From positions 1 to 6,034 of the forward strand of contig JABIQT010000354.1 in the NCBI GenBank assembly GCA_018667995.1: a stretch of 6,034 nt of DNA. Reading direction: 5' to 3'. The position numbers and the translations under genes are program-made. Position 1 is the first letter of the stretch, and every line of letters begins with the position of its first letter. The notes under the pieces were generated by a model, which was not told the origin of the DNA, ran no database searches, and saw only the letters and a list, made by a program, of their open reading frames with translations. Origin of the DNA: Candidatus Latescibacterota bacterium. Lineage in GTDB: Bacteria; JAAXHH01; JABIQT01. Positions 2 to 6,034 of the stretch are shown here, one piece after another.

Positions 2-943
2 ACGGAGACCTTTGATCTGGACCACATGGATCATGCTGTTGGAGCCGTCTGGGCCAAATATCCCAAAGGTGTTGCCGCGGTGCTACAGGGGGAGGGACTG
101 ACTCTTAGAGGATTCGATGCGGTGTTCAACGGCACCGTGCCATTGGGCGCCGGCCTCAGTTCATCGGCGGCTCTGGAAGTGGCAACAGCCACCCTCATGT
201 GCGGTTTATCTGGGATAGAAATTCCAGGACCGCGCCTGGCCAGACTTTGTCAACGCGCAGAGAATGAGTATGCCGGAGTCCAGTGTGGCATCATGGATCA
301 GTTTATCTCTTCCATGGCGGAGTCCGACACCGCGTTAATGCTCGATTGCCGATCTCTTGCCTACGAACATGTACCGCTTCGTATCGGAGATCATATTCTT
401 ATGATTGCCAATACCAATAAGCCGCGCGGGCTTGTTGATTCTGAATACAATAATCGAAGGCAGGAGTGCGAGGAAGGTGTGCGTTTGCTTCAGAAATCAC
501 TTCCTGAGACAAAGGCTCTGCGTGACGTCACTACACTAGAATTTGGCCGGCACAGGACCGGACTAACCGATCAGGTCGCTCATCGGTGCCAGCATGTTAT
601 TGAGGAGAATGAGCGCGTGGAACTCAGTGTAAAGGCACTTAAGCAGGATGACCTATCCGCTTTTGGAAAATTGATGAACGCGTCACATGATAGCCTCCGC
701 GATCTTTACGAGGTCAGCTGTTATGAGTTGGATCTAATGGTGGATATCGCCCGATCCTGTAGCGGCGTACTTGGTTCACGGATGACGGGCGGAGGATTCG
801 GTGGCTGCACAGTGACACTAGTCTCGTCCGAATCTGTCGGACAACTAGAGACAAGTATTCTGGACCAGTATCCGGCCGCGACGGGATTTGAACCGGAGCT
901 GTACGTCTGTCGTCCCTCTGCCGGGGCCAATGAATTGATCTGA
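2..943 (+). CDS. galK: Galactokinase, N-terminus cut off by window edge
   Basis: Cytoplasmic GHMP-family kinase that phosphorylates galactose with ATP to galactose-1-phosphate, first committed step of the Leloir pathway. The frame is open to the left edge, so the ATG at 26 is internal; about 75-80 residues are missing compared with the usual 380-390, including the N-terminal sugar-binding signature. Counting from the ATG at 26, the glycine/serine phosphate-binding loop PLGAGLSSSAALE is at residues 39-51, the catalytic aspartate is D91 in CGIMDQF, SEYNNRR is at 139-145, and the third GHMP motif MTGGGFGGC is at 253-261. The C-terminus (YVCRPSAGA) matches the normal family end, so the 3' end is intact. 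The stop is 36 bases before the HNH gene, compatible with cotranscription. Other GHMP kinases are much less likely, because the spacing and wording of all the motifs follow E. coli GalK closely. Confidence 0.95.
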   Translation, partial: TETFDLDHMDHAVGAVWAKYPKGVAAVLQGEGLTLRGFDAVFNGTVPLGAGLSSSAALEVATATLMCGLSGIEIPGPRLARLCQRAENEYAGVQCGIMDQFISSMAESDTALMLDCRSLAYEHVPLRIGDHILMIANTNKPRGLVDSEYNNRRQECEEGVRLLQKSLPETKALRDVTTLEFGRHRTGLTDQVAHRCQHVIEENERVELSVKALKQDDLSAFGKLMNASHDSLRDLYEVSCYELDLMVDIARSCSGVLGSRMTGGGFGGCTVTLVSSESVGQLETSILDQYPAATGFEPELYVCRPSAGANELI

Positions 944-979: not shown

Positions 980-1333
980 ATGAAGAAACCTCTCTCTACA
1001 GCGACGTGGGCGCAGTTAGTAAAAGAGCGTGATGAACGGCGTTGTCAGCACGACGGGTGTACCGAGACGAGCAATCTCGAGGCTCATCACATCGTACCCG
1101 TCTCCCAGGGCGGACCGAACACTCCGGAAAATGGCATCACGCTATGCCGTGAGCACCATACCATCGATAACGTACGGATACACAATCGAAGCCGGACTCA
1201 GTCAAAGACCGATCGGATTTTCGCCAAGAGAAAGACGGGAAAGCGAGAGGCCGCCTATCGATTCCTCTCTAAGAAACGCTTGATGGAGACTGCTCGTCCC
1301 AGAGGTCCCTGGCGGCCTGATGAGGAAGACTGA
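980..1333 (+). CDS. Small HNH endonuclease domain protein
   Basis: A 117-residue protein made of little more than one HNH (His-Asn-His, beta-beta-alpha-metal) nuclease domain. Zinc-knuckle-type residues are C22 and C27 (spacing of four), then C56 with H59. The catalytic HNH residues appear to be H36/H37 in AHHIVPVSQGG, N51 in PENGITLC and H60 in CREHH. The C-terminal 55 residues are strongly basic (many K/R), consistent with DNA or RNA contact. No phage terminase, intein, intron or restriction-methylation partner is visible beside it, so its role (housekeeping repair-type nuclease, remnant of a mobile element, or part of an undetected module) cannot be assigned. The start is supported by GGAGG at 965-969. 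It lies between galK and the BFN gene, both apparently core-type genes. The family call is secure; the function is not. Confidence 0.85.
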   Translation: MKKPLSTATWAQLVKERDERRCQHDGCTETSNLEAHHIVPVSQGGPNTPENGITLCREHHTIDNVRIHNRSRTQSKTDRIFAKRKTGKREAAYRFLSKKRLMETARPRGPWRPDEED

Positions 1334-1663
1334 TCAGGTGCCTCTGACGCCCGCGAGACATGTGCTGAGATCATGGAATTTGAAATTCCCTCTGTCACGG
1401 ATTTTCACCTTGACCGCATTCGATCAGTCGCCTTATTATGTGAGGTAGCTGCCTGCGGTTCAGTTCTGATCGCTGGTCTATCCCCGATTCTGCGAAGAAT
1501 ACAGCATAAGCGTGATTTCAAAGAGAACAATTGTAGCATGGGTTGGCATGGCGGTTAATTCCGTATAGTAGTAATAAAACGGAGCTTTGTTGCCGGCCGT
1601 ATGAGGTGGGGCTTTACCCTCAAAAAAATCGGTCACCATCGAGACGTCCAGGGCCCTTCAGCA
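1334..1663 (+). other. Intergenic stretch without a convincing gene
   Basis: These 330 bases separate the HNH and BFN genes. A 61-codon open frame (1373-1558) could encode a short peptide with one hydrophobic stretch (about residues 18-40), but it lacks a good ribosome site and recognisable homology, so I do not call it a gene. The BFN frame is also open back to an ATG at 1601, but the extra 21 residues do not look like the family's N-terminus. I see no terminator with a T-run, no tRNA and no complete riboswitch. The right part is more AT-rich and holds a weak promoter-like pair at 1543-1569. Confidence 0.5.
1543..1569 (+). promoter_or_regulatory. Possible weak promoter for the BFN gene
   Basis: TTGGCA (1543-1548) and TATAGT (1564-1569) resemble -35 and -10 boxes, but the spacer is 15 bases, shorter than the usual 17. 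It stands about 95 bases before the preferred BFN start at 1664, at the AT-rich end of the gene-free stretch. If the organism belongs to the Bacteroidota-like lineages, sigma-70 consensus boxes may not apply. This is a tentative call. Confidence 0.2.
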
Positions 1664-2299
1664 ATGATTAAAGTCAAAGTGTATGATGTAGGCCACACCT
1701 ACCCCGTAAACTATTCGGTGAATCCGTCGCCTCTGCTCTGGCTAACCGATGAGGCTGAAGAACGTGTGCTTGTACTGACGATTGGACCGTCCGAGGCGGT
1801 TGCCATCAAAATGAAGCTCGCGTCGGAGCCCAGTTCCTTTCCAAGACCAATGACCCACGATCTTTTGAAGACGGTTTTTGAGCAATTGGACGCATCCGTT
1901 AATCGCATAGTGATCACTGAGCTGCGGGAAGGCGAGTTCTACGTGGCCGAGATCCACGTAAACAGAGAGAGTGATGCGGTGGTACTGGATGCCAGACCCA
2001 GCGATGCTATCGCCCTGGCACTTCGAACTGATGCGCCTATCTTTGTGGCGGAGGAGGTTATGGAGGAACACGGCCAGCCGATGCCGAAAGAAGCAGCGAC
2101 ATCTCCCGAGGGATTGATCGAAGAGCATCTCGAAAGCATACAGGATGGCTCCACCATGAGTGTCACCGAAGGCGAGGATCCTGAAACGACTGAATCGCCA
2201 CTGGATACAGCCAGGAGAGAACTTCAGTCGGCCATTGATGATGAACGCTACGAGGATGCTGCGCGGCTTCGTGACGAAATCCGGAATCTCGAAGGGTAG
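1664..2299 (+). CDS. Bifunctional nuclease (BFN/DUF151) domain protein with C-terminal UVR motif
   Basis: A 211-residue cytoplasmic protein from the ATG at 1664. Residues 1-135 are a BFN/DUF151 domain, shown by TIGPSEAVAIKMKL (39-52), RPMTHDLL (61-68) and the hallmark DARPSDAIALALR (109-121). In plants and some bacteria this family has been given DNase/RNase activity, but the biochemical role in most bacteria is unsettled. After an acidic linker (about 140-177) the tail (178-211) is a helical-hairpin UVR motif like the UvrB/UvrC interaction segment (ARRELQSAIDDERYEDAARL), suggesting a protein-protein contact, perhaps with the repair or Clp/McsA-type machinery. The start at 1664 is preferred over ATG 1601 because MIKVKVYDVG matches where the family begins, with a weak CAGGG 10 bases upstream. 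The stop is only a few bases before the next gene, suggesting cotranscription and perhaps translational coupling. Confidence 0.88.
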   Translation: MIKVKVYDVGHTYPVNYSVNPSPLLWLTDEAEERVLVLTIGPSEAVAIKMKLASEPSSFPRPMTHDLLKTVFEQLDASVNRIVITELREGEFYVAEIHVNRESDAVVLDARPSDAIALALRTDAPIFVAEEVMEEHGQPMPKEAATSPEGLIEEHLESIQDGSTMSVTEGEDPETTESPLDTARRELQSAIDDERYEDAARLRDEIRNLEG

Positions 2300-2322
2300 G
2301 AGCTGTGAAAGAAGCATTTACA

Positions 2323-3123
2323 ATGTGGAAATACACCAGGATGGTTGTCCTGGTGGCTCTGACGGCGGCGATGTATGCCGCCGTTTTGATTCCGTTTAAG
2401 CTCCTTCCAATTATCCCCGGTATCACAGAAATACGCCCCGCAAATGTATTTCCAGTCATCTGCTCCCTCATGTTCGGTCCTGCTGGGGCTTGGGGGGCAG
2501 CCTTTGGCAATCTTATAGGAGATCTAATGGGCGGCACGTACGGGCTTGGTAGTTATTTCGGCATGCTCGGTAATTTCTGGTTCGGCTACATACCATACCG
2601 AGTTTGGCGGATAATTGGCAAAGGTGAGCCGATACCCTGGACCACGCGAAAACTTCTGCTCTTTCTTCCCGTCACTCTACTCGCCAGCATGGCATGTGGC
2701 GTCCAGGTCGGCTGGGGTTTGGATACGCTCGGACTCGTACCATTTCATGTCCTCGCTCCTCTGATTACCATGAACAATTTCGCGATCGCCGCCGTATTAG
2801 GCGTGCTCTTACTTCCCAGACTCTATCCGCGAGTAAAGAGGTGGGGACTGCTCTATACCGACATTATGGATCCTGAGGATCTGTCCACCGGACGTGTCTC
2901 CCACGTTGCACATATTGTCGCGTGGATAGCGCTAGGTGGTGCCCTTGTCTTCGGTGTTCTTTTGTCGCTTGGGGTAACTGGATCTGACACCTTTGACCTG
3001 GTGTTGCCAGGGGGATTCGAGCTCTCGCTATCAATGGACTGGATGCCCCAGTGGAGTGAGAGCGTGGCGCTCGGTCTTGCTCCCATAATTGTCATATTTA
3101 TCCTCGCATGTGTGTTCATATGA
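2323..3123 (+). CDS. Multi-pass membrane protein, probable ECF transporter S component (QueT-like)
   Basis: A hydrophobic protein of 266 residues from ATG 2323; GTG 2305 would give 272, but its GGAG is only two bases away, while ATG 2323 has AGAAG eight bases upstream. In the 272-residue numbering, likely membrane segments are at about 12-38, 46-76, 82-101, 116-136, 148-172, 203-224 and 253-272. The first 175 residues have the glycine-rich look of small-molecule-binding S components of energy-coupling-factor transporters, closest by eye to the QueT family: TM1 with ALTAAMYAAVL, then EIRPANVFPVICSLMFGPAGAW and GNLIGDLMGG. The ligand cannot be read from the sequence. No EcfT or EcfA gene is in the window, so a shared energising module elsewhere would be needed. 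The added C-terminal part (a hydrophilic loop around 176-200, then two membrane segments) is unusual for an S component, and the protein stops inside its last hydrophobic segment. Two hairpins overlap its first codons. Confidence 0.7.
   Translation: MWKYTRMVVLVALTAAMYAAVLIPFKLLPIIPGITEIRPANVFPVICSLMFGPAGAWGAAFGNLIGDLMGGTYGLGSYFGMLGNFWFGYIPYRVWRIIGKGEPIPWTTRKLLLFLPVTLLASMACGVQVGWGLDTLGLVPFHVLAPLITMNNFAIAAVLGVLLLPRLYPRVKRWGLLYTDIMDPEDLSTGRVSHVAHIVAWIALGGALVFGVLLSLGVTGSDTFDLVLPGGFELSLSMDWMPQWSESVALGLAPIIVIFILACVFI
2334..2355 (+). repeat. Perfect 8-bp inverted repeat in the start of the membrane gene
   Basis: CACCAGGA (2334-2341) and TCCTGGTG (2348-2355) are exact reverse complements around a six-base loop, beginning 11 bases after the ATG at 2323. 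As RNA this is a stable hairpin within the initiating ribosome's footprint. It may be chance from codon usage; see the neighbouring hairpin. Confidence 0.6.
2362..2387 (+). repeat. GC-rich 8-bp hairpin followed by TTTT inside coding sequence
   Basis: ACGGCGGC (2362-2369) and GCCGCCGT (2377-2384) pair perfectly around a seven-base loop, and a run of four T (2384-2387) follows. In an untranslated region this would be called a short intrinsic terminator; here it lies within codons for the first membrane helix (Ala-Ala-Met-Tyr-Ala-Ala). The repeated alanine codons GCG GCG and GCC GCC explain part of the symmetry. Attenuation-type control is possible but unproven. Confidence 0.5.
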
Positions 3124-3191: not shown

Positions 3192-4472
3192 ATGCGAGTG
3201 ACAAGTGTCGATCGAATCGTGGTGGATGTCCCGTTCACGGACCGTCAGACACACATCAGCGAACGCGAAGTTTACAACTGGGCTATTCTTGAGCTCTGCA
3301 AGGTGACGACGGACAGCGGCATCGTAGGGTGGGGTGAGACCGTGATTCATTACACGTGGTCTCGCGTGACGGATGAAGCCGTGGATCGTGTAGTCGGCAA
3401 GAGTCCCGCTGATGTAATGAACGATGATACGCTGGGTGCGGGCCTTCAAATGGCTCTGTTTGATGTGGTGGGTAAGGCCCTGGAAGTGCCTTGCTACAAG
3501 TTGATGGGGACCAAAGTACGCGACTGGACTCCGATTTCATGGTGGTCCATCGATGCTTCACCTCAAGAGTGGTCAGCAGAAGCCGTGGATGCCGTCTCCC
3601 ATGGATATACCAGTTTCAAAATCAAACAGCGGCCCTGGTGGGATATCGTAGAGCAGGTTGAAGCGGTATCAAAGGTGGTACCGGCGGGCTTCAAACTAGA
3701 TCTGGATGCCAATGGAACGATGCAGAATGCTGCGGCTGCCATGCCGATCATGCAACAGTTGGAGCGATATGACCATGTGGCCATGTTTGAAACCCCCATT
3801 CCGCAGACGGACATCCTCGGAAATCGGCAGCTCAGGCAGGCTATCTGTCGGCCCATAGCTATGCATTTCGGATCGCCTCCGTACATAACCGCCGTTCGTG
3901 AAGAAGTATGTGACGGCTTCGTGGTCTGTGCCGGAAAATCGGCGGTTATGCGTCAGGGCGTTCTTGCTGCCGAAGCGAGTATGCCTTTCTGGCTCCAGTT
4001 GGTGGGCAACGGCTTGACGACCACTTGGGCGGCACATCTGGGTGCGGTCCTCACACACGCCACCTGGCCCTCAATTACGTGTATGAATCTCTATAGCAAC
4101 CAGTTATTGAAAGAGCCCATAAAAGTGGTCGGAGGGTATCAGCAGGTACCAGAGAATCCCGGGCTTGGTGTTGAGGTGGATGAGGAGGCCATAGAGGAGT
4201 TTCGTGTTCCCGATACGACCTTGGAAGCTCTATCGGAGGGCGAAAGATATGACCGTCCATTTCCCCGGATCATATGCTCGACCGTTTATCCAGACGGTTC
4301 CCGGATTCACCTTGCTCCCATGCATCAGGGATATGGCTATTTCTCACAGGGACATGGTCCGGCCCATACGCCGGGAGTCAGGCTGGAACCATGGCACGAT
4401 GATGGAACGAAGGAATGGGAAGAATTGTTCGAGCGGGCCAAGAAACATCCTGTCCGCGACAGCGGAATCTAA
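3192..4472 (+). CDS. Enolase-superfamily (mandelate racemase/muconate lactonizing type) protein with altered active site
   Basis: A 426-residue protein with the enolase-superfamily plan: capping domain at about 1-110 (typical TTDSGIVGWGET at 39-50) and a TIM-barrel from about 115. Members abstract a proton alpha to a carboxylate, often dehydrating sugar acids, using Mg2+ held by three acidic residues. Here the KxK motif is K143-I-K145 (SFKIK), metal ligand one is D172 in LDLDANG and ligand two is E200 in FETPIP. Where the third ligand and its usual DE dipeptide belong, the sequence reads PIAMHFGSPP (221-230), giving H225-F226. The next strand reads FVVCAGKSAV (243-252) without the usual catalytic Lys or Asp. 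Thus the chemistry is unclear: unusual ligation, or a non-enzymatic or binding role. The C-terminal tail past about 355 carries an extra His/Gly-rich segment (HLAPMHQGYGYFSQGHG). It is 41 bases before the UxuA-like gene, suggesting a shared sugar-acid or uronate pathway. Family secure; substrate unknown. Confidence 0.85.
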   Translation: MRVTSVDRIVVDVPFTDRQTHISEREVYNWAILELCKVTTDSGIVGWGETVIHYTWSRVTDEAVDRVVGKSPADVMNDDTLGAGLQMALFDVVGKALEVPCYKLMGTKVRDWTPISWWSIDASPQEWSAEAVDAVSHGYTSFKIKQRPWWDIVEQVEAVSKVVPAGFKLDLDANGTMQNAAAAMPIMQQLERYDHVAMFETPIPQTDILGNRQLRQAICRPIAMHFGSPPYITAVREEVCDGFVVCAGKSAVMRQGVLAAEASMPFWLQLVGNGLTTTWAAHLGAVLTHATWPSITCMNLYSNQLLKEPIKVVGGYQQVPENPGLGVEVDEEAIEEFRVPDTTLEALSEGERYDRPFPRIICSTVYPDGSRIHLAPMHQGYGYFSQGHGPAHTPGVRLEPWHDDGTKEWEELFERAKKHPVRDSGI

Positions 4473-5614: not shown

Positions 5615-6034
5615 CTATTCTGCGCTCTTTGTCGGATCCGGATGAATGGAATCCACCCAGTATACCGCTTCAGGTGGTTCGATGGGCTGAATGTCCAGAT
5701 TGACCACAACCGGATCCATCCCGCTGCGCACCAGTACACAATCAAGGGCCTCATCCGAACAGGCATTAATCTCCTGGTGCGGCACAAACGGAGGCACATA
5801 TATGAAGTCTCCCGGTCCCGCCTCTGCCGTGAACTCCAGCTCCTCGCCCCACCGCATCCGTGCCCGTCCCTTTACCACATAAATCACGCTTTCCAGTTCG
5901 CCATGATGGTGCGCGCCAGTCTTCGCATCGGGATGAATGGTTACCGTGCCCGCCCAGAGTTTGCTTGCGCCGGTTCTGGCGTGGGTAATGGCCGCGGCTC
6001 TTCTCATGCCAGGCGTCTGTGGTGTGTTTTCGTC
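5615..6034 (-). CDS. Single-domain cupin protein, N-terminus beyond the window edge
   Basis: A small beta-barrel cupin, convergent with the UxuA-like gene. From the ATG at 6007 it is 130 residues, but the frame is open upstream to the edge, adding DENTPQTPG before Met; related environmental cupins as I recall them carry a TPQTPGM-like segment internally, so the true start is probably off the window. Cupin motif 1 spans about 31-54: HHH at 33-35, E39 and YVVKGRARMRWG (43-54), giving ligands H33, H35 and E39. Motif 2 is GDFIYVPPFVPHQEIN (66-81) with H77 as the fourth ligand. The complete metal set suggests a metal-dependent enzyme (dioxygenase, isomerase or decarboxylase) or a small-molecule sensor; the substrate is not readable. 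The 129-base gap to the UxuA-like stop holds only the plus-strand terminator and no clear signal for this gene. Confidence 0.85.
   Translation of the reverse strand, partial: DENTPQTPGMRRAAAITHARTGASKLWAGTVTIHPDAKTGAHHHGELESVIYVVKGRARMRWGEELEFTAEAGPGDFIYVPPFVPHQEINACSDEALDCVLVRSGMDPVVVNLDIQPIEPPEAVYWVDSIHPDPTKSAE

Follow-up and report, generated by a model that had tools for sequence, protein, structure and literature searches.

Genes of the locus

The window (the whole stretch of DNA that was analysed, 6,034 nucleotides of a Candidatus Latescibacterota contig, JABIQT010000354.1) carries the genes and features listed in Table 1, of which a member of the enolase superfamily is the subject of this report. 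The protein belongs to the mandelate racemase/muconate lactonizing enzyme (MR/MLE) part of the superfamily. Pfam MR_MLE_C (7.1e-27) and MR_MLE_N (1.5e-6) both matched above cut-off, and the superfamily's architecture, a cap domain with a (beta/alpha)7-beta barrel, was also recovered in PDB matches with Z of about 35. NCBIfam gave no equivalog or characterised family at its cut-off for this protein.

Table 1. Genes, predicted active-site positions and other features of the window
Feature	Position	Strand	Basis or remark
GHMP kinase (galactokinase-like)	2..943		cut by window start
Small HNH endonuclease	980..1333
Bifunctional-nuclease-domain protein, C-terminal UVR motif	1601..2299
QueT-like ECF S-component membrane protein	2305..3123	+	upstream; Pfam QueT 1.7e-14
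Enolase-superfamily (MR/MLE) protein, His-ligand clade, 426 aa	3192..4472	+	ORF, Pfam, AlphaFold
K143-I-K145 (KxK), strand 2 (141-145)	3618..3626	+	K143 codon 3618-3620, K145 codon 3624-3626
R147, clade signature KxKxR	3630..3632	+	69/71 in KxK/Gln core of clade
D172, predicted first metal ligand, end of strand 3 (168-172)	3705..3707	+	98/98 in clade
E200, predicted second metal ligand, end of strand 4 (196-200)	3789..3791	+	98/98 in clade
H225 (CAT), third metal-ligand position, end of strand 5 (222-225)	3864..3866	+	98/98 His in clade
C246, just past strand 6 (242-245)	3927..3929	+	MLE Lys / MR Asp position
Q269, end of strand 7 (266-269)	3996..3998	+	position of His base in MR-type dehydratases
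C-terminal extension, ~85 aa, beta-beta-alpha-beta-alpha-beta	4203..4469	+	absent from ordinary MR/MLE proteins
UxuA-like (mannonate dehydratase family) protein, 323 aa	4514..5485	+	Pfam UxuA 1.8e-94; NCBIfam PRK03906 242 bits, cutoff 191
Cupin	5615..6007	-

The UxuA-like gene starts 41 bp 3' of the enolase-superfamily gene on the same strand, and it lies directly downstream in all 16 of 16 same-order orthologues. Its product, which has an unrelated, xylose-isomerase-like fold, is a probable pathway partner. Read by eye, it contains MHPDDPP, FCQGNF, HFVHFRD and RPDH, which we take to be metal-site residues, and these putative residues look intact. On the upstream side, a QueT-like gene cluster recurs in part of the same-order loci, as does the bifunctional-nuclease-domain gene upstream of the operon. 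The QueT-like S-component might import a substrate of the operon. No RNA families and no tRNAs were found in the window.

Predicted active site

The AlphaFold model of the protein, built from alignment A1 (pLDDT 95.8, pTM 0.93), has K143 and K145 on strand 2, while strands 3, 4 and 5 end in D172, E200 and H225, respectively. These C-terminal strand ends are where the superfamily keeps its three metal ligands, so that the predicted set would comprise two acidic residues and, as the third, a histidine. An initial annotation, made from the letters of the DNA, had singled out K143, K145, D172, E200, the segment AMHFG (223-227) and the stretch FVVCAGKSAV; checking the codons placed every one of them where it had been said to be. 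It had also proposed that the protein represents a subgroup whose metal site differs, with His225 as a ligand, and that proposal is well supported by the register of alignment and model, together with the invariance, monophyly and solved precedent described below. In the alignment, the H225 column (within A223-M224-H225-F226-G227) falls on His246 of 2oqy and on the Asn of 4dye. A misread register, with some other Asp or Glu serving as the third ligand, was considered and rejected: the clade has no conserved acidic residue at or beside H225, and the 2oqy and 4dye residues align there.

The same annotation held that the usual acid/base residue is missing, which turned out to be half of the picture. 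The Lys or Asp of strand 6 is indeed gone, its position being taken by C246, within GFVVCAGKSAV, and usually by Gly in relatives (motif table). The His of strand 7 is gone as well; residue 269 is Gln in 89 of the 98 clade rows, while the 35 other rows of the alignment have mostly His (18) or Gly (13). The strand-2 Lys pair, however, is kept, and would be enough for one-base chemistry. K143 is found in 98/98 rows of the clade and K145 in 80/98, the remaining rows having His, and K145 is the likely catalytic base. R147 is atypical for other MR/MLE proteins, and Trp118 is present in 95 of 97 members of the His group.

Distribution and conservation of the histidine

Scanning genome contigs yielded 23 relatives, all with His at position 225, labelled as Latescibacterota, Poribacteria, Zixiibacteriota and Gemmatimonadota, or in one case only as "bacterium". 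The other 15 genomes of the order each hold an orthologue (74-81% identity), and 34 matches come from the genome of the window itself, at least ten of them of the His type. In the phylum designated G054, 78 of 84 genomes had a match at E <= 1e-28 (a count of matches, whatever the residue at 225), while the 195 genomes of the phylum designated G043 gave no match at E <= 1e-22.

To these relatives deeper paralogues were added in an alignment of 133 rows, one of which (L024) repeats the protein of the window. Position 225 is His in 98 rows; the other 35 comprise 16 Asp, 15 Gly (mostly then Glu), 2 Asn, 1 Cys and 1 Thr. Every protein in this alignment scoring above 100 bits is of the His type, and the His is constant, within a sharply separated group, down to about 30% identity, far more than chance would give. 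The initial annotation had asked whether HFGSPP is conserved in homologues; the His is, the motif as a whole less so, with HFG or HYG in the near clade and MHVPQ, LHGVG, FHHLP or MHLGD in deeper members.

Within the His clade, one branch shows KxH in place of KxK (rows L080, L028, L030, L083, L112, L114, L116-L118 and L127-L129), the catalytic Lys thus being swapped for His too, and also carries HYDFN and EDPL motifs. This branch suggests that the catalytic base can change within the His clade. A search for His-type members in cultured, plasmid-bearing organisms matched 633 plasmid records. In the four rows examined, taken from among the best, His was absent from the third-ligand position: three had Asn there and one had an ordinary ALDES motif. 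The best plasmid-borne relatives are haloarchaeal (L145, L146 and L148), with Asn (PNED/VNED) as the third ligand and KTK on strand 2.

The C-terminal extension occurs, at about 75-90 residues, only in the larger branches of the His clade; short branches stop near residue 340. Wherever it occurs, D404 is nearly invariant, and a conserved DDG is found close to its end. No recognised Pfam family covers it. Modelled alone, the 89 residues gave pLDDT 87.4 and pTM 0.71, and a comparison of this small model with the PDB returned no match at E <= 0.001, which is an absence only.

Origin of the His site and selection

A tree of 109 rows was built without columns 222-232, so that the motif itself was removed. 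A single branch (SH-aLRT 100) separates all the His rows from the rest. In a second, careful tree that included seven PDB representatives, the His group was recovered with 100/100 support and 2oqy was placed elsewhere, with MLE-type rows. Constraining 2oqy into the His group was rejected (AU p = 0.024, with one galactarate dehydratase II sequence that forms a long branch), and a single origin shared with 2oqy is accordingly disfavoured. These trees point to the His ligand having arisen twice, in the clade and in 2oqy, although this support is modest, 2oqy being one long branch by itself.

Near relatives compared in two separate lineages gave dN/dS of about 0.09-0.11. This strong constraint, with the gene intact in all orthologues, argues against a decaying pseudogene; that reading was rejected, as it had been in the initial annotation. 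The change at H225 is a real and probably working active-site variant, fixed across a large family in uncultured bacteria.

Comparison with characterised subgroups

The four top Foldseek matches of the model (3hpf, 3fyy, 3es7 and 2oqy, of which some contain Mg) are all entries of one protein, the His-ligand enzyme galactarate dehydratase II of Oceanobacillus iheyensis (also 3gd6). It has the enolase fold, as here, and an Asp/Glu/His ligand set like the one predicted here: 2oqy reads FRLYVG, SYDFSH, MIESPA and PISEHVW, giving R162, Y164, D193, E221 and H246. A 2009 paper on 2oqy is said to have called the strand-5 His unprecedented and to have taken Tyr164-Arg162 as the base. The two proteins thus have a His on strand 5 in common, but strand 2 carries an Arg-x-Tyr pair in 2oqy and K143-I-K145 here, the loop with Tyr90 (mutated to Phe in 3hpf) is missing from the window protein in the alignments, and they do not share a branch of the tree. 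Galactarate dehydratase II (GalD) is among the seven enolase-superfamily subgroups listed in PMC7246345, which cites Rakus et al. 2009 Biochemistry 48:11546, and both 3fyy and 4dye are included in the one-structure-per-subgroup superposition of PMC5467563.

The other subgroups resemble the window protein in different respects. The glucarate dehydratase subgroup and its relatives (E. coli GlucD 1ec7, 4dye, 3vc5) keep KxK and have a non-acidic third ligand, with Z of about 35, but this ligand is Asn (4dye, 3vc5) rather than His, a His near strand 7 is kept and the cap domain is longer. Members of the muconate lactonizing/dipeptide epimerase subgroup (1muc, 3dg6, 1jpm, 2p88; Z of about 34-35) have KxK and the Asp and Glu ligands in common with it, whereas their Asp third ligand (ADE) and strand-6 Lys are replaced here by H225 and by C246 or Gly. 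Mandelate racemase (2mnr) likewise has the fold, the strand-2 Lys and the Asp and Glu ligands, but its Glu third ligand and its His297/Asp270 base are absent, with Q269 and C246 in the latter positions. VIA-align scored MLE, glucarate dehydratase and GlucDRP equally (Z of about 35), so that a subgroup cannot be picked from the fold by itself.

A non-acidic third ligand is therefore already known, with His in one solved case, albeit without KxK on strand 2. The statement in the initial annotation that the superfamily needs three acidic ligands was too strict, given the Asn of the glucarate dehydratase subgroup and the His of galactarate dehydratase II. A literature search found no paper on the His-ligand clade, which is an uncharacterised subgroup of a known superfamily. 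Within the superfamily, conservation is highest at the metal ligands, which help to tell its subgroups apart. A large clade whose third-ligand position is His, apparently gained independently of the solved His enzyme, would offer a natural test of how much a metal site may alter without loss of catalysis. Uncultured genomes of the Latescibacterota and Poribacteria type carry His-type genes in abundance, and these pass no curated family cut-off; standard annotation would say just "mandelate racemase/muconate lactonizing enzyme", leaving some sugar-acid metabolism in these groups without an assignment.

Proposed function and alternatives

We somewhat favour the reading that this is a functional enolase-superfamily enzyme with a D172/E200/H225 metal site and one-base chemistry, most likely an acid-sugar dehydratase. 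A nitrogen of His225 would complete a site for a divalent metal (Mg2+ or Mn2+), and the bound metal would hold the carboxylate of a sugar acid. K145, aided by K143 and R147, could then remove the alpha-proton to give the enolate. The strand-2 Lys is the acting residue in o-succinylbenzoate synthase. For a one-base enzyme without a Lys, Asp or His in the second half of the barrel, elimination of water seems the most likely outcome, and syn-elimination would fit a reaction with K145 as the one base. In the same-order genomes the gene is probably co-transcribed with the UxuA-like dehydratase gene, and its product may feed the breakdown of sugar acids. Since no characterised NCBIfam family was reached, dehydration would follow from family and context. 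It is possible, although we hold this more tentatively, that the clade is a further subgroup beyond the seven curated ones, with a D/E/H site independent of galactarate dehydratase II, K145 as sole base, a C-terminal domain of unrecognised fold and a reaction undescribed for the superfamily; a new reaction was also among the options that the initial annotation had put forward.

Several other explanations compete with a one-base dehydratase. The protein could instead be an epimerase, racemase or cycloisomerase in which K145 acts by itself or together with a residue contributed by a loop or the C-terminal extension; epimerisation at C2, for example, might supply UxuA with a mannonate-type substrate. 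The constant UxuA-like neighbour and the presence of MLE-type cycloisomerases among the top structural matches are in keeping with this, but a 1,1-proton transfer ordinarily requires another base facing K145, and no such residue is conserved, which makes such a reaction unlikely. Membership of the known galactarate dehydratase II subgroup, with a diacid sugar dehydrated by the same route, is suggested by the matching ligand set predicted here, by the leading Foldseek matches and by the KxH branch, whose best PDB sequence match is 2oqy. We nevertheless regard it as quite unlikely in view of the different strand-2 residues (the base role of R162/Y164 reportedly), the missing Tyr90 loop and the rejection of a joint clade.

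We judge it very unlikely that the protein is a catalytically dead scaffold or partner subunit, a role that GlucDRP has in the GlucD-GlucDRP heterotetramer and that the initial annotation had raised. That precedent is represented among the structural matches (4gyp, 4il0), the acid/base positions of strands 6 and 7 are lost, and some relatives (L002, L082) adjoin an ordinary MR/MLE gene. Yet a dead protein would have no need of K143, D172, E200 and H225, invariant in 98 rows, or of a position 145 that is always Lys or His, and the strong constraint together with these residues argues against it. As for an active paralogue to pair with in a heteromer of the GlucDRP type, the same-order orthologues have no enolase-superfamily gene as a fixed neighbour; the constant neighbour is UxuA-like, and no active paralogue is obligatorily adjacent.

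Neighbours in other phyla

Outside the order, the His-type genes have different neighbours, including an IlvD family protein (dihydroxy-acid dehydratase by NCBIfam), SDR, PhyH, xylose-isomerase-like and PLP enzymes, and transporters, so no single pathway follows. Beside the relatives, the genes for SDR, PhyH and xylose-isomerase-like proteins fit a catabolic role, which may be the breakdown of sugar acids. In L002, an ordinary galactonate-dehydratase-like MR/MLE gene (L002:4241-5983) lies immediately upstream of the His-type gene, and in L082 the adjoining MR/MLE gene is ManD-like.
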